From the NCBI RefSeq assembly GCF_000296465.1, contig NZ_JH815205.1:511109-575108 (forward strand): a stretch of 64,000 nt of DNA. Reading direction: 5' to 3'. Both the position numbers and the translations under genes were made by a program. This DNA comes from Barnesiella intestinihominis YIT 11860. GTDB taxonomy: Bacteria; Bacteroidota; Bacteroidia; Bacteroidales; Barnesiellaceae. The notes beneath the pieces are model-generated. The model was not told where the DNA came from and ran no database searches. It saw only the letters and a list, made by a program, of their open reading frames with translations. Positions 11,828 through 41,676 of this stretch are shown piece by piece (positions within the stretch are counted from its first letter, which is position 1; each line of letters opens with the position of its first letter).

Positions 11828-11847
11828 CTCAATAAAACCACATTTGT

Positions 11848-12201: not shown

Positions 12202-12215
12202 ACTTTCTTCCCCAA

Positions 12216-14915: not shown

Positions 14916-14942
14916 TTTTCTATGTTTTATTTTTGTTATCTA

Positions 14943-17474: not shown

Positions 17475-17477
17475 AAT

Positions 17478-19997: not shown

Positions 19998-20016
19998 AAT
20001 CCTGTTTTTTGTTTGG

Positions 20017-22864: not shown

Positions 22865-22875
22865 ATTTTATAATT

Positions 22876-23672: not shown

Positions 23673-25472
23673 TTAATTATAATACGGATTTTGTTTCAAT
23701 TTCTCATTCTTGGCAATTTCCCCATCAGGAATTCTCTCATAATACATTTTTACATCGAATGTATAATAGTATTTATTGGCAACGACTTCCTCGAATATAT
23801 ACTTCTGTTTGTTAATATCGAAATATGGACACAAACCCGTATACTGCTTGGTCTCGATTTCTTTATCGGCAATTCTCCAACGTCTCAAATCCCAATACGT
23901 GTGATTTTCAAAAGCCAGCTCGATTCTGCGTTCGTGTCTAACCTTATCTACGGTCAAATCGCTCAAAGAAAGTTGCTTAATATCTGCACGACTGCGGATA
24001 TCATTTATCCAAAGCAAGGCATCGTCCAAATGCTGCCCCATTTCTACCGCCGCTTCGGCTCCATTCAAGAGAGCTTCTGCATATCTGAACTCAATCCAAT
24101 GTTGTTCCGAATAATTTTCGATGACTTCTGATTGCGGCATATTCTCGTTCAAGTACTTGCGCATAAAGAAACCAGTCATATTACCCGAATAATTTCCACT
24201 TCCGCTTTTCCCTACAATATGATAAACCTGTCCGTCATTGGCCGTATAAACAGCCTCCTCATAATTCGTGGCATTTTCCTTCTTGCTACCATCTTCTATG
24301 ATCAATCCCTTTTGTATAGAACAAGGCTCTCCCTTGAAAATAGCATTCGGATAAATGATCGAACCGCCAAAACGGGCATCCATATTTTGAAACAGCTCCG
24401 AAGGATCATCGAAATAAGTGTCCTTCGCTCTTTCTGCGAAATTTGCAGGAGTACCGTCTTTGTGTTCAAACATTTCAACAAATTCCAATGTAGGGTTCAT
24501 ATTGGAAGAAAAACCGTTTCCACGGTATTGGTAAGGAACGAAATAAACATCCCAGCCATGTGCGTTTACATTGCGTTGGAAATATTTACAGAAAATATTC
24601 TCTGGGCTGTCCTCGGCAAGGAACAGCTCGGCAAAATTTTTCTCTTTATCCGAGTTCTTCCTATACAACGAAAATCTCTTCGATTTTTCAAGTTCCTTTA
24701 CAGCTTTATAAGCTAATTCGAAATAATCGTTTGCCAAAGCCTTATCGATACCGACCAAACCATTCAAATCAACGGTTCCATAACGCGCGATACTACCGGC
24801 ATACAGCATAGCGCGAGACTTCAATGCCAAAGCAGCATATTTGGTGGCACGTCCTTTTCCCAAAATCTCCTCATTATCGGGCAACAGACGGAAAGCCTCG
24901 TCTAAATCTTCCGCAATAAAATCATAGCAGGCCTTTTCCGTATCTCTCGGTACTTTCAGCGATTCAATATCGCCTACATACTCTTGCGGTTCTCTCAATA
25001 TAGGTACACCACCATATCTTTTCACCATTGCAAAATAGCAGTAAGCCCGGATAAAATGAGCCTCTCCCATCCATGCATCAGCAAGAACCGTATTCTGGAA
25101 ATTGGATTTATAGGCCGGGAAATTTTTCAAAAAGTAATTCACCCGACGAATTTTTCCATAATCCCAACAGCCCCACCAAGTTCCATCACCGATGGTCGAA
25201 ATATCATCGCTGGAACTACACATAGCCTCACCCGATACATTCGGTAAACGACCTTGCCCTTTACCCGATACATTGAATCCTTGTTGTGTATAGCGAAAGT
25301 CCTCTATGGGTAAGTCATAGTAAAGAGTCGTCATATAAGACGTTATACCCGATTCTGAATTAAAAATCGCATCATCTTGTATAATATTAATGGGCGGCAC
25401 ATCTAAGTAATCACACGAATAAAACGATAGGGCCATCACCAATGCCGATACTAATATCTTATTTATTCTCAT
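23673..25472 (-). CDS. SusD-like outer-membrane glycan-binding lipoprotein (RagB/SusD family)
   Basis: A 599-residue RagB/SusD protein. The signal MRINKILVSALVMALSFYSC ends in lipobox Cys20, followed by DYLDVPP. Helical repeats of TPR type fill the N-terminal half (AHFIRAYCYFAMVKRYGGVPIL, KYAALALKSRAMLYAGSIA), and the C-terminal signature HERRIELAFENHTYWDLRRWR is complete, followed by the usual tail LKQNPYYN. It forms the surface lid of the SusC pore encoded 11 bases upstream. The DUF3823 gene follows after 14 bases. Length and architecture are ordinary; the ligand must be inferred from the surrounding GH92, GH51 and GH43 enzymes. Confidence 0.96.
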   Translation of the reverse strand: MRINKILVSALVMALSFYSCDYLDVPPINIIQDDAIFNSESGITSYMTTLYYDLPIEDFRYTQQGFNVSGKGQGRLPNVSGEAMCSSSDDISTIGDGTWWGCWDYGKIRRVNYFLKNFPAYKSNFQNTVLADAWMGEAHFIRAYCYFAMVKRYGGVPILREPQEYVGDIESLKVPRDTEKACYDFIAEDLDEAFRLLPDNEEILGKGRATKYAALALKSRAMLYAGSIARYGTVDLNGLVGIDKALANDYFELAYKAVKELEKSKRFSLYRKNSDKEKNFAELFLAEDSPENIFCKYFQRNVNAHGWDVYFVPYQYRGNGFSSNMNPTLEFVEMFEHKDGTPANFAERAKDTYFDDPSELFQNMDARFGGSIIYPNAIFKGEPCSIQKGLIIEDGSKKENATNYEEAVYTANDGQVYHIVGKSGSGNYSGNMTGFFMRKYLNENMPQSEVIENYSEQHWIEFRYAEALLNGAEAAVEMGQHLDDALLWINDIRSRADIKQLSLSDLTVDKVRHERRIELAFENHTYWDLRRWRIADKEIETKQYTGLCPYFDINKQKYIFEEVVANKYYYTFDVKMYYERIPDGEIAKNEKLKQNPYYN

Positions 25473-25483
25473 CGTATTTCAAA

Positions 25484-28400
25484 TTAGAATGATAAATTCA
25501 ATCCAAAGTTAAAGTTTCTCATAATCGGATACAGGTATCCATAATTCCCTTCCGGATGCTCGGGATCGACGAAATCCAAATTAGATAGCGTAAATAAATT
25601 ATAGCCATTTGCAAATATCCTCAAACGATCCACTTTGAATTTACGAGTGATATGCTGGGGTATTGTATAGCCAATTTCCACGCTTTTCAACCGTAAATAA
25701 GAAGCATCGTATGTCGTCTGTTTACATCTTGCATAATTCACGCTATAAGATCCGGCATCACGGGTCGTAGGCCATTTTCCGGGAATCCAGTTCCCATTTT
25801 CGTCCTGACGATATCTGTCATAAAAATGAGCCAAACCGTTTCCACCGAAACACAACGGGTATTGCAATTGCTCGAAATAGATCACATTGAATCCACCACC
25901 GCCTTGGAACAACAGGTTCACATCAAACCCTTTCCACTCGGCAGCGATAGTAGCACCGAATGTCATTTTGGGATTTCCGTTATCATTGGTGTGCTCGTAC
26001 ACGTTCGGATAAACATCACTGTCATCGATGATTCCGTCGCCATTCCAGTCTTCATATTTCCAGTCACCCGGCAACTGGGTAGCACCACCCTGACCGTCTT
26101 GAATAGGCGACCGCCAAATATCCTCCATCGAAGTAAATTGTCCGTTTGAGCCATAAGCCCACCCCATATCGGAATATCGGTTTGAATATTTATTTCTCCA
26201 TCTATCATAGGAATTCACTGCATCCCCTTCCTCCAAATGTCTGTTCTGACGACGAGTCAATGCAAAATTCAAACTTACCGAATAGTTGAAATCATTAATC
26301 TTATTGCGATGTCCCAATACGATTTCAAAACCTTTATACAAATCTTGATTCAAATTTTCTTCCGGCAATTCAGCACCTATAGTACCGGGAACTTCACCAC
26401 TTCTCTTTCCTAACAGACCATCTCTGTATCTCCAAAAGAAATCTACCTGTGCAGACAGCATACCATTCCAAAGATCAAGATCGGTTCCCACGTTCAAGGT
26501 CTTCGACTTATACCAAGTTATCAGTTCATTCGGTAGACCTCTGAAACCCAATCCTTTATAGACAACATCGCCGAATACATAACTGGCGCCCGGATAATCA
26601 TATCCCGACAAATATTGATAGGACGAGGAACCATCGTCACCCATAGCTCCATAAGATGCTCTTAACTTCCAATTCGTAATAAAGGACAGCGGAGCAAATT
26701 CTTTGATAAAGCTCTCTTCCGAAATTCTATATCCGACAGAGGCCGATGGGAAAAATCCCCAACGATGTCCTTTGGCAAACTTGGAAGAACCGTCATAACG
26801 GAAGCTAACTTCTGCCAAATATTTGGATTGATAATCGTAATTGACACGTCCGACTAGACCCATATTCGTTACACGATAAATCTGGCCAGCATCGGCATTA
26901 CCGATTTGCTCTTCTTCGGAGCCTGCAAAAATCTCGTCTACGGCATCCATCTCGAAGTTTCTTTTTGCCCACAAGTTATCCTCTTCCTTTGCACTTTGTT
27001 CGTACAAAAACAAGACTTTCAAGTTATGTTTCTCTGCAAAAAGACGCTCATAGTTCAAAGAAGCCTGTAATTGATTCTGTGCTCCCTCCCATGATTTTCT
27101 GTAAATAGAAGAAGGCGATGAATATATCTGAGAATTATAAACATCTTTCTCCCTATCGTATTTATATAATGTATATTGTTTTTGAAATTCTTTCTGTTGA
27201 TAGTTCTTATAATCATAAGCATACAAAAACTTAGCACTTAATCCTTTCAAAAAAGGAGCTTTATAAGTCAATGTAAATGTAGTATTCAAGGTTCGGTTTA
27301 TCCTACGCTTATAACCGGATTGATCGGCATCGGTAATCATAAGCGGATTCAAACCATACATCACGTCATTAGGAAAACTCTCATTATTATTGGCATACGG
27401 AGTTTCCGTAGGTTTAAGCATCCAAATAGCTTTGAACTGTTCCCAAGTATCTTTATAAGGTTGATTCTTTTCATCGGACATCGCACCGATCAACAATTCG
27501 GCTTTCAAATCTTTTGTAACATCGAAACTCAAATTGGAACGGATATTATAACGATGGTAATTTAAATCGCCGGTTTTCCAAATACCGTCTTCGCCATAGT
27601 AACCAAAAGAAAGGAAATATTGTGTACGCTTCCCGCTTCCGCTGGCCGTTACATTGTGATGGGTTTGAGGGACCAAATTTTTCATAGCCAAATCATACCA
27701 GTCGGTTCCTCCCTCCCGGCGGAAACGAGCTACATCTTCTTCCGTGAAAGTGGTATTAATACCTCTACCCATATTTTTATCAGCTTCACGAACAAGCTCG
27801 GCATATTGAGCAGCATCCAAAACATCAGGCAAGCCCGACGGATTCTGGAAACCGAAACTTCCGGTATAATCAATTCGGGTCTTACCGCTCTCACCCTTAC
27901 GAGTCGTCACCAATAACACGCCATTCGATGCACGCATACCATAAATAGCGGCAGATGCGTCTTTCAATACAGACACGCTCTCGATATCGTTAGCTTCCAA
28001 CCGCTGGAAATCTGACACCTCTCTTACGACACCATCAATAACGACCAAAGGAGTACCCAATCCACGGATATCCATCTTGGCATCATAACTACCCGGCTCT
28101 CCCGTACGTTGTTGAATACGCACACCCGGCAATTTACCGGCCAACATATTTTGGACATTCGAAGTGGGTGTAACGGTCAGTTCATCTGTTCCTATCGTAC
28201 TGACTGCTCCTGTTAAAGTAGCTTTTTTCTGTGTGCCGTAACCTACGACCACTACTTCATCTAATATCTGATCATCTTCACTTAAAGTCACATTCACTAC
28301 GGTTTTTCCCTTCAAGGCAACATTTTTCGAAGCAAAGCCGATCAATGAGAATTTCAATTCCGCTTTGTCCAATTTGTCACCGGATACATTCAAATTGAAA

Positions 28401-28636
28401 ACACCGTCTATATTCGACATCGTACCGGTATTAGTTCCCACCACTACGACATTAACCCCGGGTAAAGGTTCCCCGGACTGATCCCTCACTACCCCTGAAA
28501 TTTTCTGCTGTTGATCATTTTCTGCTAAAACCGTAGCGCAGCCTACCACAACAAAAAATAAAAATAGGAATGAATGAGAATAATGGGAAAGCATTGAAAC
28601 CGCCTTTTCCATATAAAAGAAATTGTTTTTTTTCAT
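25484..28636 (-). CDS. SusC-like TonB-dependent outer-membrane transporter of the large locus
   Basis: The start is taken at ATG 28634-28636 ([15 protein letters not shown]) rather than an in-frame ATG 14 codons upstream, because it gives a normal signal peptide; the mature part begins near [10 protein letters not shown]. The product has 1050 residues: carboxypeptidase-D-like domain ([24 protein letters not shown]), plug with [33 protein letters not shown] and [26 protein letters not shown], then a barrel ending in FGLNLSF. No STN domain is present. It is followed after 11 bases by SusD. A hairpin at 28714-28744 lies between it and the gene before it, and I find no TAnnTTTG box in the 118 bases upstream, so it may depend partly on read-through. 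Confidence 0.95.
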   Translation of the reverse strand: [1050 protein letters not shown]

Positions 28637-28713
28637 GCGTCCTGTTAGATTATTGTTATTCAACCATTTCCTTAACAAGCAATTGCAATTTTAGAATTTA
28701 AAAAAGATAGGAA

Positions 28714-28744: not shown

Positions 28745-28754
28745 ATTTGATTTT

Positions 28755-30041: not shown

Positions 30042-30072
30042 GACATTAAAACTTTAAATTATTAATAACACT

Positions 30073-32340
30073 TTATTTAATAGCGGATTTCGGACGACAA
30101 TCCATATTCGCCCCAAAATCCTTATTCGGTTTATTTCCCATTGTAATAACCAATGTTCCCCCATTCACTATATCGGCATGAGAGATGTAAGACTTATCAT
30201 ACGGTCGACCGTTCAACTGAACCGACTGAATATATTTGTTCTCTCTTGAATTATTGACCGTCCTTATTTCAAACACCTTATTTTCTGGCAATTTCAAAGC
30301 GACCTTATCAAAAATCGGTCTTCCGAAAACATAGATTCCATTAGAAGGATTGACCGGATAAAAACCTAAGGACGAAAACACATACCACGAAGACATCTGC
30401 CCGCAATCCTCGTTACCCTGTAACCCGTCGGATGAATCATGATACATTTGTGACAATATATAATCGACTTTCTCCGCCGTTTTCCACTGCAACCCAGCAT
30501 ACGAATAAAGATATACGGTATGATGTCCGGGTTCATTGCCATGTGCATATTGCCCTATCAGACCGGAAATATCAGGAGATGCCGCATCGCCCAAATCGGC
30601 ATTAACCGAAAACAAACTATCTAATTTCGAAACAAAAGCGTCATCACCACCCAACAAAGAAATGAGACCTTCCACATCATGAGGGACTAACCATGTATAT
30701 TGCCAACCATTTCCTTCGCAATAAGCATCGTTCCGATGAGTTGAATGAACAGGATTAAACGGAGTAAGCCAAGAACCATCTTGATTTTTTCCTCTGAAAA
30801 AGCGGGTGTCCTTGTCCCAATATTTTTGATATGCCAAAGCTCTCTTCGAAAAATATTCATAGTCATCTACCTTACCCAGCTTTCGAGCCACTTGTGCCAC
30901 TCCCCAATCTGCAATGGCATATTCCAATCCCTTAGCTACCGATTCCTTCTCTTTATCTGCCGGAATATATTCAAGTTTTGTCACATACGATAATCCCTTA
31001 TAATCAGACATCATTGAAGCCTTCATTGCTTGATAAGCCCGTTCGTAATTAAAACCTTTCATATTTTTCAATATAGCATCCGCTATAACAGGAACCGACT
31101 GAATACCTATCATTTCATTCGTGTCCGAGCCATACAAATGCCAAACCGGCAAACGTCCTTGTTGCTCATAAATAGCCAACATCGAATTAATAAAATCGGG
31201 AACACGCTCCGGCTGCACCAACGTATATAATGGGTGAGCCGCACGATACGTATCCCACAATGAGAATACGGTATAATTGGTGAAACCCGGATCTCCATAC
31301 ACATTTTTGTCGGTACCTCTATATTCCTTGTTACAATCATTGAACATAGCCGGTTGTATAAACGCATGATATAAAGCTGTATAAAAAATACGTTTGGCTA
31401 CTGTATCCGTAGTCGATACTTGCAGTTTGGACAATTCGGCATTCCATTTGGCAGTCGTCTCATCTACAACCCGTTCAAAATTCCAATCGGCGATTTCTTG
31501 CCGAATATTAGCCGCCGCATTTTCCATACTCACCGGCGATATTCCCACTTTCACATCAAGTCTCTCGACATCAGATGCGACAATTACATTTCCCTTCACG
31601 TCGATGCCTTGTAAAACATTTCCTTGTACCGGTATCGAATCGTGAAACAAAGCTAAACGTATCGGTTCGGAGAAAACAGCCGTAAAATAGATTTGCTGTT
31701 GCTTCGACCAACCAGAGGAACAACGATAACCACTGACAGTAGTATCGTTTACTTGTTCCAGATATGTATCGGTAGGACGATCATCGCCATTGGCATCCTT
31801 TAAATTAATCATCACATACTTTTCGACATTCTTCGGGAAAGTGTATCTGTGAAAGGCAACTCGGTCCGACGCCGTCAATTCTACTTTTGTACGATGAGTT
31901 TTCAATACTACTCCATAATATCCGGGTAAAGCCGTTTCATCGCTCTTAGAATAATAAGAAGCATAACCCGATAAGGGATTATCTTGGGTTCCCGGCTGCG
32001 TACGCATTTTCCCCGTATATGGCATAAATAACAAATCGCCCGTGTCGCTACAACCGGTTCCATTGAGATGCAAATGTGAAAATCCTATTACAATCGAATC
32101 GGAGTAATGATAACCCGAACACCAATCCCACCCTTTATTTATATTGTTAGGACCGATCTGCACGGCTCCGAATGGAGCAGCGACTCCTAAAAACGTATGA
32201 CCATGTCCGCCGGTTCCTATATACGGGTCCACATAATTTACCGGAGCAAATATCGCCGATTCGATATTTTCGTCTTTTACTCTACACGATACAAGTAAAA
32301 ATAAAATAGAAATGAATACAATTAAAGGTTCTTTTTTCAT
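30073..32340 (-). CDS. GH92 exo-alpha-mannosidase, lipoprotein, classical active site
   Basis: A 755-residue GH92 enzyme with lipoprotein signal (lipobox LVSC, Cys19). The N-terminal beta-sandwich carries VDPYIGTGGHGHTFLGVAAPFGAVQIGP and GFSHLHLNGTGCSD. The (alpha/alpha)6 barrel has FSLWDTYRAAHPLYTL (359-374), DAYCEGNGWQYTW (538-550), the catalytic-acid motif HGNEPGHH with Glu603, and GNEDCGQMSSWYVFSSLGFYPV (642-663) containing the base Asp. GH92 enzymes are calcium-dependent inverting exo-alpha-mannosidases, mostly acting on alpha-1,2, 1,3 or 1,4-linked mannose. It is the first gene after the operator-bearing promoter at 32364-32473 and is followed by the GLUG gene after 31 bases. Confidence 0.94.
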   Translation of the reverse strand: MKKEPLIVFISILFLLVSCRVKDENIESAIFAPVNYVDPYIGTGGHGHTFLGVAAPFGAVQIGPNNINKGWDWCSGYHYSDSIVIGFSHLHLNGTGCSDTGDLLFMPYTGKMRTQPGTQDNPLSGYASYYSKSDETALPGYYGVVLKTHRTKVELTASDRVAFHRYTFPKNVEKYVMINLKDANGDDRPTDTYLEQVNDTTVSGYRCSSGWSKQQQIYFTAVFSEPIRLALFHDSIPVQGNVLQGIDVKGNVIVASDVERLDVKVGISPVSMENAAANIRQEIADWNFERVVDETTAKWNAELSKLQVSTTDTVAKRIFYTALYHAFIQPAMFNDCNKEYRGTDKNVYGDPGFTNYTVFSLWDTYRAAHPLYTLVQPERVPDFINSMLAIYEQQGRLPVWHLYGSDTNEMIGIQSVPVIADAILKNMKGFNYERAYQAMKASMMSDYKGLSYVTKLEYIPADKEKESVAKGLEYAIADWGVAQVARKLGKVDDYEYFSKRALAYQKYWDKDTRFFRGKNQDGSWLTPFNPVHSTHRNDAYCEGNGWQYTWLVPHDVEGLISLLGGDDAFVSKLDSLFSVNADLGDAASPDISGLIGQYAHGNEPGHHTVYLYSYAGLQWKTAEKVDYILSQMYHDSSDGLQGNEDCGQMSSWYVFSSLGFYPVNPSNGIYVFGRPIFDKVALKLPENKVFEIRTVNNSRENKYIQSVQLNGRPYDKSYISHADIVNGGTLVITMGNKPNKDFGANMDCRPKSAIK

Positions 32341-32363
32341 TACAGCATTTTATGTGTGTGAGA

Positions 32364-32473
32364 CAAAAGTAAGATTATAATATTAACAAAAACATTAATA
32401 ATACATTAAGAATCCACGATTCAAGCATACATAAAGTAGATTTTTTACTACCGAAACATTAACAAAACATTAA
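32364..32473 (-). promoter_or_regulatory. Promoter with phased TTAA triad and distal dyad, upstream of GH92 (site R1)
   Basis: On the minus strand the -7 box TACTTTTG occupies 32364-32371. Reading upstream (increasing coordinate), hexamers TATTAA, CATTAA and CATTAA begin at 32381, 32393 and 32404: spacings 12 and 11, with the first beginning 10 bp beyond the -7 box. A second pair of CATTAA begins at 32457 and 32468, spaced 11, and 53 bp beyond the third hexamer. No TTTG -33 box is evident. The leader to the GH92 start codon is about 20 bases. The same proximal layout occurs at 37504 and 38904. Confidence 0.65.
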
Positions 32474-32493
32474 TATTCGAGAGGTATCATTTT

Positions 32494-35010
32494 TCAATTC
32501 ACTTTTCCCGTTATTCCTCCGACATTCGTAATTCCTTCTATCCGACAAGTCGAGTAACAATCGATGATTTCGCTATCTTCACTCATGGAACTGGATATAC
32601 CACCCGCACAATCCTTCGCATAAACATTTCCACCCTTCACAGAACAGTTTTTTACCACCGACCGGTAAAGTGGTCCTGTCAAACCTCCGGCATTCGATCC
32701 ATGATCCGATAATCGATTTTCACATTGGCTATCGAGTATATCGACCTGTTCTATCTTTGTAGAAAAGGTAGCGCCTGTCAGAACTCCTAAACGCCCCTCT
32801 CCAATGATGCTGCAATTTTCAACTTTCAAGTTGATAATCTCTGCACCTTCTGTCACACCAAAAATACTCAGGTCATGAGCTTTTCGTTCCACCGACAAAT
32901 TCCTAATCGAATATCCACCTCCATCAAAAAAGCCACGAAAACGCTCCATAGCATTATCTCCACTTCCCCATTCGCCCAAAGGCCACCAACTTTGGCCATC
33001 TTCTCTGACATAATCAGAAAAATCGAGGTCGTTAATCAATCGAAAGCATTGGCTTCTATACTCCCTTATATGGTCGAACTGTTGCGGAGTAGAAATAAGA
33101 AACGGATCTTCCCTACTCCCCGTACCACCGGCAAAAGGAGCAGTTTCCTTCAAATAAATCCGCAAAAGCTCAAAAAAAGACGGGGCATCCAACAAACAGA
33201 TACTATCATCTATTTTTTTCAGTTCCTCGACTACCTCTACATACCACGTAGGAGATTTTATTATATTTCTAAACCAATGAAAAGGCAACCCCTCTCTTTC
33301 TCTTATTCTATTGACGATAGCTACCGCAGCATCTTTGGGCTCGACATCATTGATATCGTAATCGGCCCTCAACACAGGCATATTTCCAAAAAGCATACTC
33401 CACGAAGATAGTTTCTGAGGAACGATTCCATTGGGACTAAACGATCGATAACATTCCATTCCTTCCCAATTCAAACCGGGAGCATAACCGTCGACAATAA
33501 AGCCGGTAATGCTCAATCCCCATTTCTCATAATAGGGCTTGCAGTGTTCCGCCCACGATTGTAATCCAGAAGGTAATCCCGAAATAGGTCTGGGTTCTTG
33601 TAACATTCCGGGACTCAAATATCCGGCTCCGTTGTCCGATGCGACAAAATAATCATTCTTAGTAGCCGTTTTTCTAAAATTATGTAACACATGAGGCACG
33701 CGCTCCTGTAATACCGGACTTATGGCCCACATCATCGGGACTTTTCCTCTATTGGGGTCGTCCCAAGTAAGCGAGGTAAATTGGCTCACCCACGATGAAG
33801 CATCATAATCCCCCACATAAAATATCAGAAAGTTCCTTCCTTTCACGTCGACTTTACCGTCTTCGGTCAACAATCCTCTTTGCTTCAACTCTTCATGAGT
33901 AACCCACGGTTGCGAATACCGTTCCTCCAAAGGGAAATGCTGCCAAAAAGAGGCATTTGCCAACGCTCCGATTGCAATTGCATCGGCATCTTTAAAAGCG
34001 TTGTAAGCGCTGATAAGACGTAAAAACTCCCACTCCGTAGGAACATCGTCGTGGATACCGCCGGCATGCTTCGTATATTTAAATGCCCATGAGGGGAACC
34101 CTCCTATATAGCAATACTTTTCACCTTTATTCTGTTGGTATGCCAACAATAGCATTTCTTTAAGGGTAGCCAAATCAGTCCCTACCTTTTGAGTCGGTTC
34201 GTCTGTTGCCGGTTCGTCTCCCCACGGTGATAAATCGAAAAAGAAAGCTCGCTTGCTAATGAAAAAATCATGATTAGAAAGCGTATGATGATTCCGTACC
34301 GTAGCACCGGGATTTTGCTTCCAATATTGATCCAAATAATAAGCGGCATATTCCGTGTTGCACTTGCCGGTTTTCATATAATTCTCTATATACCAAATGT
34401 ACGGATCGTTTTTTATAGAGCCTGTACTGCCTCGATTCGTCCCCGGAATCACCCCCGATCCCGTAAACATAACACTTCCATCTTCATTGATCAATCTACG
34501 CTTTACTTTCAATCGGGGACCACCCAAAACTAAGCGGCTATACAAACTCTCGGAATCAAGATCATAACGGATCGGCAAAAGGTCTTCCGCACCCGCAACG
34601 GCAGAAGCGACATTGCTTGTGGACGGAACTCTCTCATCATAAAGTACCACCCCCTTTATGTATCCGGCGTAAGCCGACACCAAGTCTTCAATGGTATTAT
34701 ACGTCACCGTTTCCTTTCGATACAACCACTGCCCTTTCCTACGATACTTATTCAACCAATATTTATCAATATCCAATTGATCCCTATCCACAAAAAAGAC
34801 ATATAATTGCGGAGCATCCCGATTGACGATTCCTTGCAAGGCCGAAACGACATGTACATCGTCCCAAGCGACATTGCGTCCCTTTGGTGTCGACAAGTCG
34901 GTTTCCAAAGTATAATGCAGGTCATAAAGCCCTATCGCCTCTTGGCCGGCTACCTTATAGCAACCCAATACCCAAAACAGCACTCCATAGATAAGAACTC
35001 TCTTCATCAT
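32494..35010 (-). CDS. GxGYxYP-family protein fused to GLUG domain, copy 3
   Basis: Start chosen at ATG 35008-35010 (MMKRVLIYGVLFWVLGC), with AAGAGG upstream; a GTG three codons earlier is also possible. The first 620 residues are a near full-length match to the GxGYxYP protein at 13032-14915: VVSALQGIVNRDAPQLYVFF, GDEPATDEPTQKVGTD, NFLIFYVGDYDASSW, DNGAGYLSPGMLQEPR. From about codon 33144 to the stop a GLUG domain of about 215 residues is fused (FAGGTGSREDPFLISTPQQF, WWPLGEWGSGD, CYSTCRIEGITNVGGITG), closely similar to residues 30-246 of the neighbour at 28755. It stops where the neighbour continues with about 180 more residues and a type IX tail, so the fusion looks 3'-truncated. Putative glycan-active surface protein. 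Confidence 0.83.
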   Translation of the reverse strand: MMKRVLIYGVLFWVLGCYKVAGQEAIGLYDLHYTLETDLSTPKGRNVAWDDVHVVSALQGIVNRDAPQLYVFFVDRDQLDIDKYWLNKYRRKGQWLYRKETVTYNTIEDLVSAYAGYIKGVVLYDERVPSTSNVASAVAGAEDLLPIRYDLDSESLYSRLVLGGPRLKVKRRLINEDGSVMFTGSGVIPGTNRGSTGSIKNDPYIWYIENYMKTGKCNTEYAAYYLDQYWKQNPGATVRNHHTLSNHDFFISKRAFFFDLSPWGDEPATDEPTQKVGTDLATLKEMLLLAYQQNKGEKYCYIGGFPSWAFKYTKHAGGIHDDVPTEWEFLRLISAYNAFKDADAIAIGALANASFWQHFPLEERYSQPWVTHEELKQRGLLTEDGKVDVKGRNFLIFYVGDYDASSWVSQFTSLTWDDPNRGKVPMMWAISPVLQERVPHVLHNFRKTATKNDYFVASDNGAGYLSPGMLQEPRPISGLPSGLQSWAEHCKPYYEKWGLSITGFIVDGYAPGLNWEGMECYRSFSPNGIVPQKLSSWSMLFGNMPVLRADYDINDVEPKDAAVAIVNRIREREGLPFHWFRNIIKSPTWYVEVVEELKKIDDSICLLDAPSFFELLRIYLKETAPFAGGTGSREDPFLISTPQQFDHIREYRSQCFRLINDLDFSDYVREDGQSWWPLGEWGSGDNAMERFRGFFDGGGYSIRNLSVERKAHDLSIFGVTEGAEIINLKVENCSIIGEGRLGVLTGATFSTKIEQVDILDSQCENRLSDHGSNAGGLTGPLYRSVVKNCSVKGGNVYAKDCAGGISSSMSEDSEIIDCYSTCRIEGITNVGGITGKVN

Positions 35011-35181
35011 GCGACTCACCTCTTAAATTTTCAGACTTTTTATACCACGCCATCAAGATCACCTCCACCGATTTTACTTTTCATCAAGCAGTAAAAAGTA
35101 GTTTTCATGAGGTCAAAACATAGTCACCTCCGGTTTATCCGAACCGGAACACCTCGAATGTACATGGGATTTATTTGATTC
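35011..35181 (-). promoter_or_regulatory. Leader between GH92 and GxGYxYP-GLUG genes with repeated GGAGGTGA boxes
   Basis: The 171 bases between these genes contain, on the minus strand, several GAGGTG boxes resembling strong ribosome-binding sites, two of them as GGAGGTGA (read from near 35122 and 35071). One precedes a short overlapping reading frame beginning MAWYKKSENLRGE, in another frame than the main gene. A second small frame at 35040-35108 encodes 22 residues (MKTTFYCLMKSKIGGG then DLDGVV). No TAnnTTTG promoter or TTAA triad is seen, so this is probably an intra-operon leader. Confidence 0.35.
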
Positions 35182-37476
35182 TTACTTATCCTCGTTAGTC
35201 AAAGAATACGGGAAATCTTCATCGTTTATTCCGCGCTCTGTATTAGGCATATGACTCATATCGAAATCAAGAACAGCGCCGTCCATCAACTCCTCGTGTT
35301 TCAACCAATTGTGGTTATACTCTTTCCCGTTCATTTTCAGAGAACGTATATATCTATTTTCGTTCGTGTTGTCGGGAGCATTCAAAACGATCTGCTTTCC
35401 ATTTTCCAACGTAAGAATCGCCTTTTTAAAGAGCGGAGCTCCCATCACATACTCCCCTGAGCCCGGACATACCGGATAAAAGCCCAACGCAGAAAATATA
35501 TACCATGCAGAAGTCTGACCATTATCTTCATCTCCACAATAGCCGTCAGGATAAGGAGTATACAGCTTATCCATCACTTCCCTTAACCAATATTGCGCTT
35601 TCCAAGGCTGCCCGGCGTAATTATAAAGATAAATCATATGTTGGATAGGCTGGTTGCCATGTGCATAATTGCCCATATTCATAATCTGCATTTCCTTTAT
35701 TTCATGAATGCACTGCCCGTAATAACTATCGTCATAAATAGGAGGAACCACAAAAACAGAATCCAACATGGAGACAAAGTTCTCCTTCCCTCCCATCAGA
35801 TCGATGAGTCCCTGCACATCATGAAACACGCTCCATGTATAATGCCAACTGTTGCCTTCGGTAAAAGCATCGCCCCATTTATACGGACTGAAAGGAGACT
35901 GAAATGTACCATCTTCGTTTTTCCCGCGCATCAGATTGTTCTCTTTATCGAAAACGAACCGATAGTTTTTACTCCTTTCCCGATAAAGATCGATTTCTTC
36001 CTGCGGACGGTTCAATTGTTGCGCCAGTCTCATAATACACCAATCATCATAGGCATATTCCAATGTGCGCGCCACATTCTCGTTAATACCTACATTATAA
36101 GGTACATATCCTTTTTGATTGTAATATTCATATCCCAATCTTCCCGTCGAAGGAACTTGGGGGTGCACATGATTCGCTCCGTGCAGAACAGCCTCATACA
36201 ACAAATCGATCTTTTCTGTCTGGCATCCTTTCAAATAAGCATCAGCCACAACAGATGCCGAATTATTACCCACCATGCAGTGACGGTGTCCCGGGCTGGC
36301 CCATTCGGGTAAAAATCCACTTTCTTCATAACTGTTTGCCAATCCTTCTTGAATTTCTTTGTTGACAGAAGGATACATAAGGTTCAAGAAGGGAAATAAA
36401 GCGCGGAACGTGTCCCAAAATCCGGTATCTGTATACATATATCCTCTCCTCACTTCTCCATTGTAAGGACTATAATGGACAATATTTCCATATTTATCTA
36501 CTTCATAAAACTTACGGGGAAACAATAAAGAACGATACAAGCAAGAGTAGAAAGTACGTAGTTGTTCATCAGTTCCCCCTTCTACTCTCACTCTATTCAT
36601 TACATCGTTCCAAGCATTTCGAGCAGACTCTTTTACCTCGTTAAAATTTCTACTGCCCAGTTCTTCCAAATTCAACCATGCCTGCTCTTCACTGATAAAA
36701 GAAGAACTTACCTTTACACCAATCTTTTCACCTTTATAAGTCTTGAATCCCAACACAGCACCGACATGATTATCTTCTACCTCTCTTTTACCTTTTATAA
36801 TTTTATCTCCGCTCCATACTTCTGCCGAGGCAAAAGGCTTATCAAATTTCATCACGAAGTAATTTCTAAAATTATCCGGTACTCCCCCGCTATTTTTAGT
36901 CGTATAGCCGGTTACCGTGCCATTTTCCTCATCTATCTGAACAAAAGACCCGTTATCGAATGCATCTACTACGATATACGACTCTTCACTTTCTGGGAAA
37001 GTAAACCTAAAATAAGCCGAACGTTCCGTCGGAGTAATTTCTGTTTTCACATCATGGTCAGCCAAATACACACTATAATAATAAGGCTTTGCCGTCTCAG
37101 CTTTATGAGAAAACCAGCTTCCTCGCTCATTTTGCAAGAACTTTTTACCCCCGGCCACCGGCATCAATGCAAACTGCCCATAATCATTGATCCACGGACT
37201 GGGCTGATGTGTCTGCTTAAATCCTTTTATCTTATCGTCGGTATAACAATAGGCCCAGCCATTTCCCATATCTCCCGTTTGCGGTGTCCAGAAATTCATT
37301 CCCCACGGTAATGCGACAGCCGGATAGGTATTGCCCGTAGACAAGGTAAACTTAGATTGAGTTCCCACTAACGGATTCACATAGTCAACCGGTGAAAAAG
37401 AAGTAGAAAGCACCTCTTTACCTCCGCACGATATAAGTAAAACAGATAAAAATACAAGTAAAGAAACTTTTTTCAT
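35182..37476 (-). CDS. GH92-family lipoprotein with Gln in place of the catalytic acid Glu
   Basis: Start chosen at ATG 37474-37476 (MKKVSLLVFLSVLLISC), a lipoprotein signal; an ATG ten codons upstream overlaps the promoter. The product of 764 residues is a full-length GH92 protein: PVDYVNPLVGTQSKFTLSTGN, TGFWDTFRALFPF, DAFTEGNSWHYTWSV, and DEDNGQTSAWYIFSALGFYPV. Where the neighbour has HGNEPGHH with the acid Glu, this protein reads HGNQPIQH; the Gln codon is CAG at 35650-35652 (residue 609 from the chosen start). In the GH92 enzyme CcMan5, which removes mannose from mannose-1-phospho-6-mannose, a Gln at this place has been described, since a phosphate leaving group needs no acid. I therefore predict mannose-1-phosphodiester cleavage, by inference. 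Confidence 0.9.
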   Translation of the reverse strand: MKKVSLLVFLSVLLISCGGKEVLSTSFSPVDYVNPLVGTQSKFTLSTGNTYPAVALPWGMNFWTPQTGDMGNGWAYCYTDDKIKGFKQTHQPSPWINDYGQFALMPVAGGKKFLQNERGSWFSHKAETAKPYYYSVYLADHDVKTEITPTERSAYFRFTFPESEESYIVVDAFDNGSFVQIDEENGTVTGYTTKNSGGVPDNFRNYFVMKFDKPFASAEVWSGDKIIKGKREVEDNHVGAVLGFKTYKGEKIGVKVSSSFISEEQAWLNLEELGSRNFNEVKESARNAWNDVMNRVRVEGGTDEQLRTFYSCLYRSLLFPRKFYEVDKYGNIVHYSPYNGEVRRGYMYTDTGFWDTFRALFPFLNLMYPSVNKEIQEGLANSYEESGFLPEWASPGHRHCMVGNNSASVVADAYLKGCQTEKIDLLYEAVLHGANHVHPQVPSTGRLGYEYYNQKGYVPYNVGINENVARTLEYAYDDWCIMRLAQQLNRPQEEIDLYRERSKNYRFVFDKENNLMRGKNEDGTFQSPFSPYKWGDAFTEGNSWHYTWSVFHDVQGLIDLMGGKENFVSMLDSVFVVPPIYDDSYYGQCIHEIKEMQIMNMGNYAHGNQPIQHMIYLYNYAGQPWKAQYWLREVMDKLYTPYPDGYCGDEDNGQTSAWYIFSALGFYPVCPGSGEYVMGAPLFKKAILTLENGKQIVLNAPDNTNENRYIRSLKMNGKEYNHNWLKHEELMDGAVLDFDMSHMPNTERGINDEDFPYSLTNEDK

Positions 37477-37503
37477 GGAATCGTTTTTTTTTATTTTTTG
37501 TGA

Positions 37504-37601
37504 CAAAAGTAAGCCGGGGCAATTAATAAAACCATTAATAGAATATTAATTATCCATATGCAATACTTATTTCCGAATCAAAAACATTAATAAGGCATTA
37601 A
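37504..37601 (-). promoter_or_regulatory. Promoter with phased TTAA triad and distal dyad, upstream of GH92(Gln) (site R2)
   Basis: The minus-strand -7 box TACTTTTG lies at 37504-37511. Hexamers AATTAA, CATTAA and TATTAA begin at 37521, 37533 and 37544: spacings 12 and 11, the first beginning 10 bp beyond the -7 box. A further CATTAA pair begins at 37585 and 37596, spaced 11, and 41 bp beyond the third hexamer, about four helical turns. The leader to the start codon at 37476 is about 20 bases. The proximal layout is identical in spacing to sites R1 and R3. Confidence 0.65.
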
Positions 37602-37840
37602 CAATTCTCATAAGAAAGGGAGCGACATAACAAGATTAATAACAGGGGGAACCACTCGACAATCAGCATAAAAACAATTCTTTCAAATAAAGCTATCGAG
37701 GTCAACGTTATTGCCTCATATCTTTCCATATATTTTACCGCAAATAGTCACGTGTAGAAAACAACATCGCCTCAAACAAGAAAATTTTCATTGAGTTGTT
37801 TTTCTTGTTTGAGGCGGTGATACATTTCTGATACTATTCG
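37507..37840. other. Intergenic gap, 334 bases, holding promoter R2 and the GH43 terminator
   Basis: No gene is supported here. The part near 37504-37601 holds the GH92 promoter with its TTAA repeats, and 37765-37819 the terminator hairpin of the GH43 gene. The 160 bases between them show nothing I can name. Confidence 0.7.
37765..37819 (-). terminator. Strong hairpin terminator after the GH43 gene
   Basis: GCCTCAAACAAGAAAA at 37769-37784 pairs perfectly with its reverse complement at 37800-37815, and the stem extends outward to 37765 and 37819 with one G-U pair, giving about 20 bp around a 15-base loop. It lies 21 bases after the GH43 stop on the minus strand. This separates the GH43 transcript from the GH92 promoter R2. 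Confidence 0.75.
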
Positions 37841-38881
37841 CTAATCCGTAAGCCTATTGACACCGACACCGTCGAAAGTCATCTTCACCGGTTTAATAAA
37901 ACCATTTTCGTCAAAATACATACGGTCGATACAAATCTCTCTATGATTTGGAATCGTATCGCCCAATGGGTGGCGATGATAAACAATATACCACTCGTCT
38001 TTCCCCGGTATCTGAATGACCGAATGATGTCCCGCACCTGTACCCACACTCTCGTCTTGTTGCAATATTTTCCCAATACGCTCGAAAGGGCCGAACGGAG
38101 AATCGGCAATGGCATAAGCCACACTATAATCCGAACCTCCCCAACTGCCTTCCGACCACATAAAATAATATTTGTTATTCCGTTTCAACATAAAAGGTCC
38201 CTCCACATAATTCTCAGGTGTGACAGATTTATAATAAGAACCATCGTCAAAAGGAACGAGACTCAATAAATCCGAACTCAATTTTACCATATTACAATGA
38301 TGCCAGCCTCCATAATACATATAATAACTACCGTCGTCATCTTTAAAAACGAACTGATCGATCGGCTGAGCGCCGTTCACAATCTTATCGATCAAAGGTT
38401 TCCCCAAAACGTCTTTAAATGGGCCTGCCGGGTTATCAGCCACAGCGACACCGATTCCACCATATTGCTCATCATTCTGGATATCATTCCCTCCGAAAAA
38501 CAGATAATATTTGCCATTCACCCGAACAATAGACGGAGCCCATAAGGCAAATTCCAACCACTTTATATTCTCAACAGACAACACTTTGGGATGCTTAGTC
38601 CAGTGAACCATATCTTTTGATGAAAAAGCATCCATATAAGTCTGTATATTATAGACCTGATGAATGGCCCGCGTTTCTTTTTTCAATTCGGGAAAATCTG
38701 CGCTATCGGCTCCGAAAGGAATATCGGACAACGTAGGATATATCCAATATTCATCATCGAAGACAACCCCTTCTGGATCGGCATACCAACCCTCGACAAT
38801 AGGATTGCCACTATACTCTTTCTCATGCTTACACGCCACCAACAGCAGCGCCAAACTCAATACAATAATACTTCTCATCAT
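37841..38881 (-). CDS. GH43-family glycosidase, lipoprotein (arabinofuranosidase or xylosidase type)
   Basis: A 346-residue single-domain GH43 protein; lipoprotein signal MMRSIIVLSLALLLVAC with Cys17. The five-bladed propeller residues are in place: base Asp35 in WYADPEGVV, the pKa-tuning Asp175 in QPIDQFVF, and acid Glu227 in NYVEGPFML. Other family stretches are FALWAPSIVRVNGKYYLFFG and TGAGHHSVIQIPGKDEWYIVYHRHP. It should remove terminal arabinofuranose or xylose. It stands alone as a single-gene transcript between promoter R3 and its own terminator, and is read away from the membrane SARP-like regulator. GH43 subfamily cannot be settled by eye. Confidence 0.91.
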   Translation of the reverse strand: MMRSIIVLSLALLLVACKHEKEYSGNPIVEGWYADPEGVVFDDEYWIYPTLSDIPFGADSADFPELKKETRAIHQVYNIQTYMDAFSSKDMVHWTKHPKVLSVENIKWLEFALWAPSIVRVNGKYYLFFGGNDIQNDEQYGGIGVAVADNPAGPFKDVLGKPLIDKIVNGAQPIDQFVFKDDDGSYYMYYGGWHHCNMVKLSSDLLSLVPFDDGSYYKSVTPENYVEGPFMLKRNNKYYFMWSEGSWGGSDYSVAYAIADSPFGPFERIGKILQQDESVGTGAGHHSVIQIPGKDEWYIVYHRHPLGDTIPNHREICIDRMYFDENGFIKPVKMTFDGVGVNRLTD

Positions 38882-38903
38882 GTGTCATTTTTAATTAATG
38901 TAA

Positions 38904-39002
38904 CAAAAATAAACGTCGGCCGTTAACGGAAATATTAATAAACCATTAACAAACGAACTTCGGTGCACAGTAAAAACACCCTGTACATTAATAATATATT
39001 AT
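38904..39002 (-). promoter_or_regulatory. Promoter with phased TTAA triad and distal dyad, upstream of GH43 (site R3)
   Basis: The minus-strand -7 box TATTTTTG lies at 38904-38911. Hexamers CGTTAA, TATTAA and CATTAA begin at 38921, 38933 and 38944: spacings 12 and 11, the first 10 bp beyond the -7 box, exactly as in R1 and R2. A distal pair CATTAA and TATTAT begins at 38986 and 38997, spaced 11, and 42 bp beyond the third hexamer. The distal pair lies about 48 bp upstream of the -33 box of the divergent regulator gene, so it could also serve autoregulation. Confidence 0.65.
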
Positions 39003-39049
39003 TTTTACAATCAATTCCATAAAAAGATTCCATAAATATAATTTTTTTC

Positions 39050-39080
39050 TTTGTAACCCTCCTAAACCATATTATCTTTG
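39050..39080 (+). promoter_or_regulatory. Consensus Bacteroidota promoter of the membrane SARP-like regulator
   Basis: A -33 TTTG at 39050-39053 is followed after exactly 19 bases by the -7 box TATCTTTG at 39073-39080, matching the TTTG-N19-TAnnTTTG pattern. The start codon at 39103 is about 16 bases beyond the expected transcription start. Unlike the structural genes of the locus, the regulator has both boxes, fitting constant low-level expression. Confidence 0.75.
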
Positions 39081-39102
39081 CAAAAAACAGTTATAAGTAT
39101 TC

Positions 39103-41676
39103 ATGCAAAAGACGCTTATATTTCTGCTCTTAATGTTGGCCCTGATACCGGTTGAAGCACAAAATATTTCATCTGGATTATATTTTGCTGCCCACACCTC
39201 CATTAAAGAAGAAAGAACATCGCTTATCCTATCTCCCGAGTTCGACGCCTCAAAAGGTCTAACATTAGATTTCGATATTAAATTCAGACCCGAAGAACAT
39301 AACTACGGATATGTCTTTCGAATCATAATCGACGATGAAAAGAGTTTCGATTTGATAGCGAATATTACACCCGAAAAAAGAGCGTTGAATTTGATAGAAG
39401 GGAACAACGTCTATCTGGCTTTCGATGAAGAACTCCTTAATCAATACTCATGGAATAAATGGGCGCATATCCGGTGCTCAATCTATCCGGATAGTTTACG
39501 GCTCATCTTCGACAATCAAACATTGCAAAGCCAGTATAAATTCATCAATATCAAGAACGTGAAATTCTACTTCGGATACTCCGATCATGAAAAGTTTCAT
39601 TCTTCCGATGTCCCTCCGATGTCTATACGCAACATAAAAATCACAGACAATAAAAATAAAACAATTGCATATTGGCCTTTAAAAGAACATCTGTCACATT
39701 CCTGTTTGGATAGTCTGTATCAGATTCCGGCGACAGTCACCAATCCTACATGGGAAATAAATAAACACACCAAGTGGGTAAAAGAAAAAACATTAGCATT
39801 ACCCATATATACACAAATCTGCCATGCTCCGTCAAAAGGGAATATTTATTTTGCCAACAGCTCATTTGTACTCGTTTATTCGACTATCGACAATACATTA
39901 GATACGATTTATCCTGCTCATGGAGCTCCATACACAGAAATAAACAATCAACTCATTTACCAGCCTTATTACGATGAATTATGGTCATACGATTTCGATC
40001 CCTTGAAACAGATGTCTATATTCAATTTCAAGGATAACACATGGACAAACAATGACCGTGAAATAAAAAATCCGGAATATTCTCAACACAATACGTTTAT
40101 ATCGCCCAATGACTCGTGTCTGTATATTTTTGGCGGATATGGTAATTATCAATATAAGAACTTGATACTTAAAAAAGGACGGACACAGGACGACTGGATT
40201 CCGGTATCGTACAACGAAGAAATACCTCCGCGTTATCTAAGCGGATCGGACTACAAAAACAGAGACACGATATTGGTGTTCGGCGGCTGTGGCAACCCGC
40301 AAGGGAAACAAGAATTAGGAGTCATAAATTATTACGATCTTTATGCGATAGACATCAACACATTCAAAACAAAGAAATTGTGGACTATCCCCAACGATAC
40401 GAAAAACTTCGTCGTCGGTAATCATATTGTTACAGACGAAACGAATAACAAGCTATACGCTTTATGTTTTCCGAATGATTGTTCGAACAGCTATATCTTG
40501 CTAAAATCGTTCGATTTGACAGATGGGAATAACTGTACGAACTATGCCGATACAATCCCTTTCTCCTTCAATGATGTAAATTCTTTCTGTACACTCTACT
40601 ACGACTCGTTACAGTCGAAGCTGTATGCCGTAACCAATTATAACTACAACAATAAATCAAATATAAACATATACTCATTAGCTTATCCCCCGTTAAAAAT
40701 AGAAGATACGCTGCAAACAGTTGCAGGACATAAGGCACTTGTTACAAAGACAGGGTTCTTCATAGGTATAGGAATTTGCATAATTGCAGGTATGGGCTGT
40801 ATGTACCTCTGCTACCGAAAAAAGAAAAGGAGAAGAAAAGAAAGCCACATTCCTCACAATCCTCCGGTCGTTACAAATACGGATCGTTCCTCCAAGACAA
40901 CTACCCAAGACGAAAACTATAAGCCCCAACCGGACATTCACAAAAAATCATCTATTCTTTTCTTAGATGGATTTCAAGTATGGGATAAAAATGGTGCAGA
41001 TATCACCAAATCATTCACACCTATTTTGAAACAACTGCTCATTCTTATCATATTATATAGCGTAAATAACAAGAAAGGGATTTCAAACGTCACTCTGAGA
41101 GAGTTGCTTTGGTTTGATAAAACAGACGAAAGTGCCCAAAATAACCGCCGAGTAAATATCCGAAAACTAAAACTTTTGCTGGAAAAACTCGACGGTGTAG
41201 AACTTGTAAAAGAAAGCACCTATTGGGCGTTAAAGTTCACTCACGCTTATTGCGATTATATCGATGTTTGTAATTGGATCGACAAAGTAAAAAACAAAGA
41301 ACCTATCACAGCCGAAAACATCAATGATTTACCCTTAAACCTGCTATCGGGACAATTATTGCCATATGTCCAAACAGACTGGTTGGATTCTTTCAAGTCC
41401 GATTACACGAATTCCGTATTAGATATGGCAATAAATTTATCCAAGCAAGAATATATAAAGGGAAACAACGAATTATTAATTCAGATAGCCAACAGCATGT
41501 TTGCACACGACAAAACAGACGAGTATGCATTGATTCTCAAATGCCACACATTATATAAACAAGGAAGAACCAGCTTGGCCAAAACGACATTCGACACATT
41601 CTGCAATGAATATAAAGCAATGCTGAATACGAATTACACAAAAACATTCAATGAAGTAATTAATTGTCAATTGTAA
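39103..41676 (+). CDS. Membrane-spanning SARP/BTAD-type regulator with extracytoplasmic LamG and propeller sensor
   Basis: An 857-residue protein joining sensor and DNA-binding parts in one chain. Residues 1-19 are a signal peptide or first membrane anchor. About 20-215 resemble a LamG/concanavalin beta-sandwich (LTLDFDIKFRPEEHNYGYVFRI, WNKWAHIRCSIYPDSLRLIFD). About 230-530 form a Kelch-like propeller (NDSCLYIFGGYG, RDTILVFGGCGN). One membrane helix lies at 551-570, followed by the stop-transfer run YRKKKRRRK. After a linker, 617-712 is a winged helix of the OmpR/SARP kind (LLWFD, NNRRVNIRKLKLLLEKL, STYWALKF), and 713-857 is helical and BTAD-like (WLDSFKSDY, ALILKCHTLYKQGRTSLA). It is read away from GH43 and beside the TTAA-bearing promoters, so it probably senses a glycan in the periplasm and activates the locus. 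The ligand is unknown. Confidence 0.82.
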   Translation: MQKTLIFLLLMLALIPVEAQNISSGLYFAAHTSIKEERTSLILSPEFDASKGLTLDFDIKFRPEEHNYGYVFRIIIDDEKSFDLIANITPEKRALNLIEGNNVYLAFDEELLNQYSWNKWAHIRCSIYPDSLRLIFDNQTLQSQYKFINIKNVKFYFGYSDHEKFHSSDVPPMSIRNIKITDNKNKTIAYWPLKEHLSHSCLDSLYQIPATVTNPTWEINKHTKWVKEKTLALPIYTQICHAPSKGNIYFANSSFVLVYSTIDNTLDTIYPAHGAPYTEINNQLIYQPYYDELWSYDFDPLKQMSIFNFKDNTWTNNDREIKNPEYSQHNTFISPNDSCLYIFGGYGNYQYKNLILKKGRTQDDWIPVSYNEEIPPRYLSGSDYKNRDTILVFGGCGNPQGKQELGVINYYDLYAIDINTFKTKKLWTIPNDTKNFVVGNHIVTDETNNKLYALCFPNDCSNSYILLKSFDLTDGNNCTNYADTIPFSFNDVNSFCTLYYDSLQSKLYAVTNYNYNNKSNINIYSLAYPPLKIEDTLQTVAGHKALVTKTGFFIGIGICIIAGMGCMYLCYRKKKRRRKESHIPHNPPVVTNTDRSSKTTTQDENYKPQPDIHKKSSILFLDGFQVWDKNGADITKSFTPILKQLLILIILYSVNNKKGISNVTLRELLWFDKTDESAQNNRRVNIRKLKLLLEKLDGVELVKESTYWALKFTHAYCDYIDVCNWIDKVKNKEPITAENINDLPLNLLSGQLLPYVQTDWLDSFKSDYTNSVLDMAINLSKQEYIKGNNELLIQIANSMFAHDKTDEYALILKCHTLYKQGRTSLAKTTFDTFCNEYKAMLNTNYTKTFNEVINCQL

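Follow-up and report, generated by a model that had tools for sequence, protein, structure and literature searches.

A candidate membrane-bound SARP-type regulator associated with TTAA triads at polysaccharide utilization locus promoters in Bacteroidota

Introduction

The regulators named for polysaccharide utilization loci (PULs) include hybrid two-component systems (HTCS), SusR-like proteins, pairs of extracytoplasmic function (ECF) sigma and anti-sigma factors and cytoplasmic sugar regulators (PMC3878776; PMC10766802). The SusR-like regulators are described as single proteins which sense sugar in the periplasm, carry a C-terminal DNA-binding domain and are encoded near susCD, and their predicted motifs consist of two sites at a distance of 67 or 77 bp; the HTCS BT2628 and BT3786 are assigned to alpha-mannan loci, and the HTCS_Man motif is made of two 16-bp sites with a 5-bp spacer (PMC3878776). 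In the present work, a stretch of 64,000 nucleotides from Barnesiella intestinihominis YIT 11860, hereafter the window, was analysed together with related loci of other genomes. It carries on the minus strand a PUL (13032-38881) with GH43, two GH92, three GxGYxYP, SusC/SusD and arabinofuranosidase genes and, divergent from GH43, a gene on the plus strand (39103-41676) coding for a putative regulator of 857 residues. We consider it likely that this gene encodes a one-component, glycan-responsive transcription activator of the inner membrane which uses triads of the tetramer TTAA.

In the membrane-bound regulators ToxR and CadC, a cytoplasmic N-terminal winged helix is followed by a C-terminal periplasmic sensor, and the -7 box of Bacteroidetes promoters is TAnnTTTG. 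The SARPs (Streptomyces antibiotic regulatory proteins) are described as activators; their promoters have poor -35 elements and repeats at distances of 11 or 22 bp, the final repeat lying 8 bp from the -10 box (PMC10936776). The operators reported for the SARP PimR, with the half-site CGGCAAG, are a main one made of three repeats and a secondary one made of two (PMC5930380). No description of a regulator of polysaccharide loci of the SARP or Kelch-SARP type was found among the open-access papers listed, preprints being outside the scope, which is weak evidence of absence; one of these papers, which mentions BTAD, concerns contractile injection systems (PMC8213781).

Results

TTAA triads at the promoters of the locus

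Three triads, R1 to R3, lie upstream of the second GH92 gene, the first GH92 gene and the GH43 gene, respectively (Table 1). All have the pattern TTAA-N7-TTAA-N8-TTAA on the minus strand, with a spacing of 11 and then 12 bp along the direction of transcription, and in each case the TAnnTTTG box begins 11 bp downstream of the last TTAA. The initial annotation, which had placed repeats of 11-12 bp period at the promoters of the locus, was right in this respect; its distance of 10 bp to the -7 box is obtained only when counting to the T which precedes the TA, the gap from TTAA to TA being 11 bp. Two of the three promoters carry in addition an upstream TTAA dyad, at 70 and 58 bp from the triad (centre to centre), and the third has none. 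Besides the triads and these two dyads, no further TTAA dyad of 11 or 12 bp is present anywhere in the 64 kb.

A comparison with Bacteroides nordii and Bacteroides salyersiae shows the TTAA cores, the distances between them and the box preserved at the promoters of GH43 and GH92. Many of the bases around and between the cores differ, and some other short stretches are likewise conserved. The promoter of the regulator gene, conserved in both species, has the full consensus boxes that the initial annotation had attributed to it. Since it has consensus boxes and no triad, the sensor would be made constantly.

Fold and architecture of the regulator

A full-length AlphaFold2 model of the regulator was built with 29 relatives (mean predicted local distance difference test score, pLDDT, of 86). 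After an N-terminal hydrophobic stretch which by eye reads as a signal peptide, the model shows a jellyroll (residues ~25-215) and a Kelch propeller (~220-532), followed by a transmembrane helix (~551-571), the basic stretch RKKKRRRK (572-579) and a C-terminal module made of a winged helix (~616-712) and a helical BTAD-like domain (~718-853). The matches found by VIA with the full-length model covered the propeller, which resembles LZTR1 and KLHDC-type Kelch chains (highest Z, 21.8). On the predicted topology, the C-terminus should be inside the cell and the N-terminal sensor part outside the inner membrane.

The C-terminal module was then modelled alone (residues 612-857, pLDDT 94). At E ≤ 0.001, Foldseek returned only six matches, all of them AfsR, in the structure of its complex with a promoter, or EmbR, and all across the whole length of the module. 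In agreement with this, VIA aligned it to AfsR (8hvr, 8k60) and EmbR (2fez, 2ff4) over 227-236 residues with Z values of 14.3-13.1, the best match having Z 14.3 and 4.9 Å over 229 residues. The next matches fall to Z 10.0 and are winged helices of response regulators; the ToxR winged helix is in the same list with Z 7.9. In the model, an OmpR-type winged helix is thus directly followed by a BTAD domain, as in SARPs, and the SARP reading of the initial annotation is correct for the modelled fold. The module is located C-terminally behind a transmembrane helix and not at the N-terminus as in the classical SARP architecture, and for this reason the regulator is regarded as a SARP variant and not as a classical SARP.

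It was the fold which revealed this kinship, sequence searches of Pfam, NCBIfam and the PDB giving weak hints of a SARP relation at most. Pfam gave for the regulator only a single weak, stray match and Kelch-type repeats that fall short of the curated cut-offs; Trans_reg_C (PF00486) and BTAD (PF03704) gave no match in the window protein at E ≤ 0.1, and 2 of 29 family members match each of them weakly (best E 0.074 and 0.037). The same scan found no histidine kinase, receiver or AraC domain, which sets the regulator apart from HTCS, and no Response_reg match, which sets it apart from PhoB/OmpR response regulators. The order of domains is also the reverse of that of CadC and ToxR in the model.

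Association of the triads with the regulator family

The occurrence of triads beside family members was analysed in two partly overlapping sets of loci, a first set of 31, including the window and the truncated locus L057, and a set of 78 from the GTDB species collection. In the first set, a triad lies in an intergenic stretch adjoining the regulator gene in 14 of the 31 loci, compared with a mean of 0.275 and a maximum of 3 in dinucleotide shuffles. Counted by stretches, a triad is present in 15/50 of those beside the regulator versus 10/163 elsewhere in the same loci. Among stretches beside homologues which are alike in the C-terminal module only, 1/7 has a triad.

In the second set, 37 of the 78 loci have an exact triad of 11/12-bp spacing no further than 600 bp from the regulator. 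The share is 34/67 among loci with 300 bp or more of sequence on each side, some of the other contigs ending too soon. After removal of nine loci which are close to the window (L107, L108, L111) or belong to first-set genomes (L110, L125, L138, L150, L154, L156), 30 of 69 still carry one. The density of triads amounts to 43 in 72,576 bp of flanking DNA, where 1.4 would be expected, versus 15 in 773,235 bp lying more than 2.5 kb away. When all 256 tetramers were ranked in the same way, TTAA came first with its 37 loci, followed by its shifted forms TAAT/ATTA (27), and every other word gave 6 or fewer.

As a control, 30 susC promoters belonging to 16 of these genomes, taken as the best-scoring of those listed by SusC score and not as a random draw, contained a single triad, which is within the locus of a regulator (L215, G038:C117; regulator 5.1 kb away). 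The control susC L207, about 5 kb from a detected regulator, has no triad; because it is not a clean control, a Fisher test of 37/78 against 0/29 was set aside.

Spacing and direction

The spacing 11/11 was counted 33 times, whereas the mean over 676 spacing pairs was 0.74; the next values were 22/11 (13) and 11/22 (10). These three peaks are expected if the protein binds on one face of the helix. Anywhere in the 78 loci, the gap between triad and TAnnTTTG was 11 bp in 16 cases and 33 bp in 4, with fewer at the other gaps up to 44 bp.

The direction of the boxes was examined from 600 bp upstream to 400 bp downstream of the regulator. An exact triad at 11 bp was found at 9/71 boxes facing away from the regulator gene, at 0/94 facing it and at 4/908 distant ones. 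With at most one mismatch, these values become 15/71, 0/94 and 5/908 (Fisher test of outward versus distant, 2e-14). As the outward boxes carry triads and the inward ones none, the triads would serve the neighbouring operon and not the regulator gene. Autoregulation through triads was considered and rejected on the same count in the 78-locus set.

Triads in the window genome and in the order

In the window genome (3.44 Mb), the same pattern read backwards was used as control. The exact triad with gaps of 7 and 8 bp occurs five times, three of them in this locus (control, 1), and if each of the two gaps may be 7 or 8 bp, seven distinct triads are counted, again three in this locus (control, 6). 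When the TAnnTTTG box is added to the exact triad, three sites are left, all at this locus, and the control gives 0. What stands out is the position of the triad, at a box and beside the regulator gene, and not the bare triad. Further targets elsewhere in this genome were rejected, the other triads having no box at 11 bp; a triad at C2:447901, similar to one in the genome G006, was set aside as it overlaps the start of an open reading frame of 308 codons. Of the four triads in G006, which belongs to the same genus, two are at the regulator, and one of these two overlaps the 3' end of the regulator's coding sequence.

Relatives of the regulator were detected in 2/9 genomes of the window's family and in 30/393 sampled genomes of its order, the window being counted; two of these 30 (G215, G306) have short matches only, with E near 0.001. 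Because scoring was limited to two candidates per genome, the family counts per genome are lower bounds. The window genome has one family member and no paralogue. The triad with its box read backwards matched in 17/393 genomes.

In genomes where the family was not detected, the triad with box was seen before two genes of PhoB-type response regulators (L104:1501-2274, L105:1501-2253), and, among L086, L096, L101, L087 and L093, before small CarboxypepD_reg proteins, a metallophosphoesterase (L087) and a TonB receptor. These sites may form a separate response-regulator regulon with the same class of repeat.

Distribution of the family

The 78 family loci are nearly all from Bacteroidota and include Bacteroides nordii, B. 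salyersiae, Coprobacter secundus, Draconibacterium, Pedobacter, Chitinophaga, Emticicia and marine flavobacteria; a weak match (L184) comes from a metagenome-assembled genome of Neomarinimicrobiota. Going by the names of the genomes, the family is spread over Bacteroidales, Cytophagales, flavobacteria and sphingobacteria. In the fetched DNA of these loci, neighbours were SusC/SusD-like in 49, GH92-like in 26 and GH43-like in 12, and 61 have at least one of these. Homologues alike in the C-terminal SARP module only are found at L066-L073, in whose fetched DNA the SusC, SusD and GH92 of the window have no match. One contig of an uncultured Bacteroidaceae (CALUIR010000015.1) carries two different family members (L109, L112), whose identity to the window protein is 57% and 44%; both lack an exact triad.

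Features of the window

The coordinates are collected in Table 1. Transcription from the GH92 promoter presumably continues into the GxGYxYP gene which lies between the two GH92 genes.

Table 1. Sites and genes of the regulator locus in the window.
Feature	Positions	Strand	Remark
R3, TTAA triad (11,12) before GH43	38923..38949	-	kept in B. nordii and B. salyersiae
TAnnTTTG (-7) box, GH43 promoter	38904..38911	-	11 bp from R3
R2, TTAA triad (11,12) before GH92	37523..37549	-	kept in B. nordii and B. salyersiae
TAnnTTTG (-7) box, GH92 promoter	37504..37511	-	11 bp from R2
Upstream TTAA dyad (11 bp), GH92 promoter	37587..37601	-	37 bp from R2; kept in B. nordii and B. salyersiae
R1, TTAA triad (11,12) before second GH92, presumably also susCD genes	32383..32409	-	
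TAnnTTTG (-7) box, second GH92 promoter	32364..32371	-	11 bp from R1
Upstream TTAA dyad (11 bp), second GH92 promoter	32459..32473	-	49 bp from R1
Regulator's own promoter	39050..39080	+	TTTG 39050-39053, N19, TATCTTTG 39073-39080; without triad
Transmembrane SARP-like regulator, 857 residues	39103..41676	+	modelled architecture
GH43, predicted target gene	37841..38881	-	domain scan
GH92, predicted target gene	35182..37476	-	ATG at 37476; TTG at 37506 falls inside promoter box
GxGYxYP, putative glycoside hydrolase	32494..35019	-	without own triad
Second GH92, predicted target gene	30073..32340	-	
SusC-like TonB-dependent receptor	25484..28678	-	presumably on the same transcript as R1; predicted co-transcription
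SusD-like lipoprotein	23673..25472	-	
Remaining PUL: DUF3823, two GxGYxYP, CBM6-like, glutaminase-A-like/DUF5127, alpha-L-arabinofuranosidase	13032..23658	-	putative operon membership

The initial annotation had taken the SARP-like gene for the only regulator of the locus. It is the only one recognised among the scanned genes of the PUL, but an AraC-family gene (10871-11827) is found 1.2 kb past the far end; this gene and an RpiB-like isomerase (10871-12671 together) stand just outside the PUL. The proteins encoded at 28755-30041 and 32494-35019 (C-terminal part) have a common module, AGGTGS...DLDFxxY...WWPLGEWGSGD, with cross-matches also in L037. The locus appears to be a mosaic when the region 25484-41676 is compared with L107 and L108, and has probably been transferred. 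Identity to B. nordii and B. salyersiae, the nearest relatives in culture among those found, is 91% for GH43, 86-92% for GH92 and 82-85% for the regulator, and 45% and 71% for SusC, the latter value coming from a partial sequence at the edge of the fetched DNA.

Discussion

Comparison with described regulators

The regulator resembles the SARPs AfsR, ActII-ORF4, DnrI and PimR, and structurally EmbR, in having a winged helix followed by BTAD, and its promoters resemble theirs, at the sequence level only, in having repeats near the box. The distance to the box would match the 8 bp described for SARPs if the half-site is counted here as the heptamer TTAATnn, and the triad with upstream dyad at two promoters recalls the triplet and doublet reported for PimR. 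It differs from SARPs by its module being placed behind a transmembrane helix, a jellyroll and a Kelch propeller, by its occurrence in Bacteroidota and not in actinomycetes, by its PUL neighbours, by the half-site TTAAT instead of, in the case of PimR, CGGCAAG and by a sequence under the Pfam cut-offs. By description, it is similar to SusR-like proteins as a single protein with predicted periplasmic sensing, a C-terminal DNA-binding domain and adjoining susCD genes. The dyad-triad distances are of the order of the SusR site distances, whereas the triads of 11/12 bp at the promoter are unlike the two separate sites predicted for SusR. With the alpha-mannan HTCS it would have in common a membrane sensor controlling such loci, but the domains of the HTCS are lacking and the layout described for the HTCS_Man motif differs. 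Finally, as in CadC and ToxR, a winged helix would be tethered to the membrane together with a periplasmic sensor, in the reverse order, with the sensor N-terminal and the winged helix C-terminal, and with an additional BTAD. Comparative genomics and the modelled fold together support the proposal of the initial annotation, and the family is most likely a new one of SARP-type activators of polysaccharide loci.

Proposed mechanism

In the mechanism that we propose, the periplasmic jellyroll and Kelch propeller of the constantly made sensor would detect a glycan fragment, and the single transmembrane helix would relay the signal to the cytoplasmic SARP module. SARP protomers would then stand side by side on the TTAA half-sites, one per 11-bp turn, where they would take the place of a -33 element and bring RNA polymerase to the GH92, GH43 and susCD genes.

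Observations weighing against the proposal

Several observations weigh against this proposal. An exact triad within 600 bp is lacking in 41 of the 78 loci, among them Draconibacterium (L114, L116) and Pedobacter (L147, L157, L159, L166, L170), although one of six Pedobacter loci, L160, has one; in the first set, 17 of 31 loci have none in the flanking intergenic stretches, and the relative L038, 46-47% identical, shows no triad in 19.9 kb. In each of B. nordii and B. salyersiae only two triads were found, and R1 is without a counterpart there. The 78 loci were collected via two conserved peptides, one of them in the winged helix, and were thus not drawn at random from the family; moreover, the p-values overstate the case because related loci, being kin by descent, are not independent. 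The winged helix and BTAD domain remain under the Pfam cut-offs. In the first set, one exact triad with box (L042) points towards the 3' end of the regulator gene. No excess of bare triads is seen in 20 genomes (360 versus 365 in the backward control), for some of which the positions were listed. Sites with triad and box occur in 48/363 genomes of the order without a detected family member, so that the motif is not exclusive to the regulator family, and the association at genome level is modest (11/30 versus 48/363, window genome included; Fisher p 0.002). The presence of such sites at PhoB-type genes suggests that the half-site class is common to other winged-helix regulators of the order, and more than one factor may bind such sites. 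A shared half-site class leaves the coupling of the triads to the SARP-like gene unexplained.

The initial annotation had named the co-occurrence of family and triads across genomes as a check, and orthologous regulators without such repeats, or binding of the repeats by another protein, as evidence to the contrary. Binding by another protein has a small probability in view of the similar repeats at PhoB-type response-regulator genes in other genomes. The co-occurrence was found in both sets, and the contrary evidence is there in part: the 41 loci lack the exact triad, but 20 of them have an 11/11 triad with one mismatch, the mean over 121 spacings being 3.5. With two mismatches allowed, the signal is gone in the same loci (11/11 in 25, mean 17.7, ties at 25). 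An alternative half-site was also searched in these 41 loci, and as the tetramer scan gave TAAT/ATTA in 7 loci and weaker words in 4 or fewer, no second specificity was found.

At L042 (8547-8605), a single triad has TAnnTTTG boxes on both sides, with gaps of 11 and 12 bp; the minus-strand box faces a SusC-like gene and the plus-strand box the 3' end of the regulator gene, which could correspond to two promoters with one operator.

Alternative explanations

It is unlikely that the triads are operators of the PhoB/OmpR type, similar to Pho boxes, with the locus answering to phosphate or another two-component signal and the SARP-like protein acting elsewhere. Winged helices of the OmpR family bind direct repeats of about 11 bp, the window genome encodes three Trans_reg_C proteins, and in other genomes the triad with box precedes two response-regulator genes (L104, L105) and a metallophosphoesterase gene, as described above. 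Moreover, sites of Streptomyces PhoP and AfsR are reported to overlap (PMC10936776); for a Pho box of Bacteroidetes, the matching open-access papers listed contain no mention of Bacteroidetes. However, every exact triad with box in the window genome is in this locus and none at a distant gene, and the triads track the SARP-like gene and face away from it, which a response regulator acting genome-wide would not do.

Repression of the locus by the SARP-like protein until a glycan appears is quite unlikely. A site overlapping the -33 region would permit occlusion of the polymerase, which the sequence cannot distinguish from recruitment, and the constitutive consensus promoter of the regulator gene fits an activator or a repressor alike; activation is favoured here by the description of SARPs as activators at promoters with poor -35 elements (PMC10936776).

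Binding of the triads by the AraC-family protein, whose gene lies beside a PUL with an arabinofuranosidase, or by another regulator of the locus, is very improbable, there being no triad near that gene and the triads following the SARP-like gene in other genomes. An explanation of the repeats as coincidence in AT-rich DNA or as a general ornament of promoters is hardly credible: TTAA is common in the flanking intergenic stretches (~31% GC) and bare triads are no commoner genome-wide than their backward control, and chance could hold for single sites, but the shuffled flanks, the 11/11 peak, the tetramer ranking and the control susC promoters speak against it as a general explanation.

Significance

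With some reserve, we favour a wider interpretation, in which the activator proposed here would represent an undescribed class of PUL regulators in Bacteroidota: a transmembrane SARP with a Kelch glycan sensor, assembling on TTAA triads while tethered to the membrane and recruiting RNA polymerase there, so that the inner membrane would be the place where transcription of the PUL starts. In that case, SARPs would represent an ancient signalling module extending beyond the secondary metabolism of actinomycetes. If this is true, PULs would have another dedicated class of regulators with a short and readable operator, from which regulons and transcription starts could be predicted for many such loci and which could serve as a minimal part for glycan-responsive expression. 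The promoter geometry of SARPs, with its repeat period and box distance, would also be found outside actinomycetes and would be a general property of the fold.

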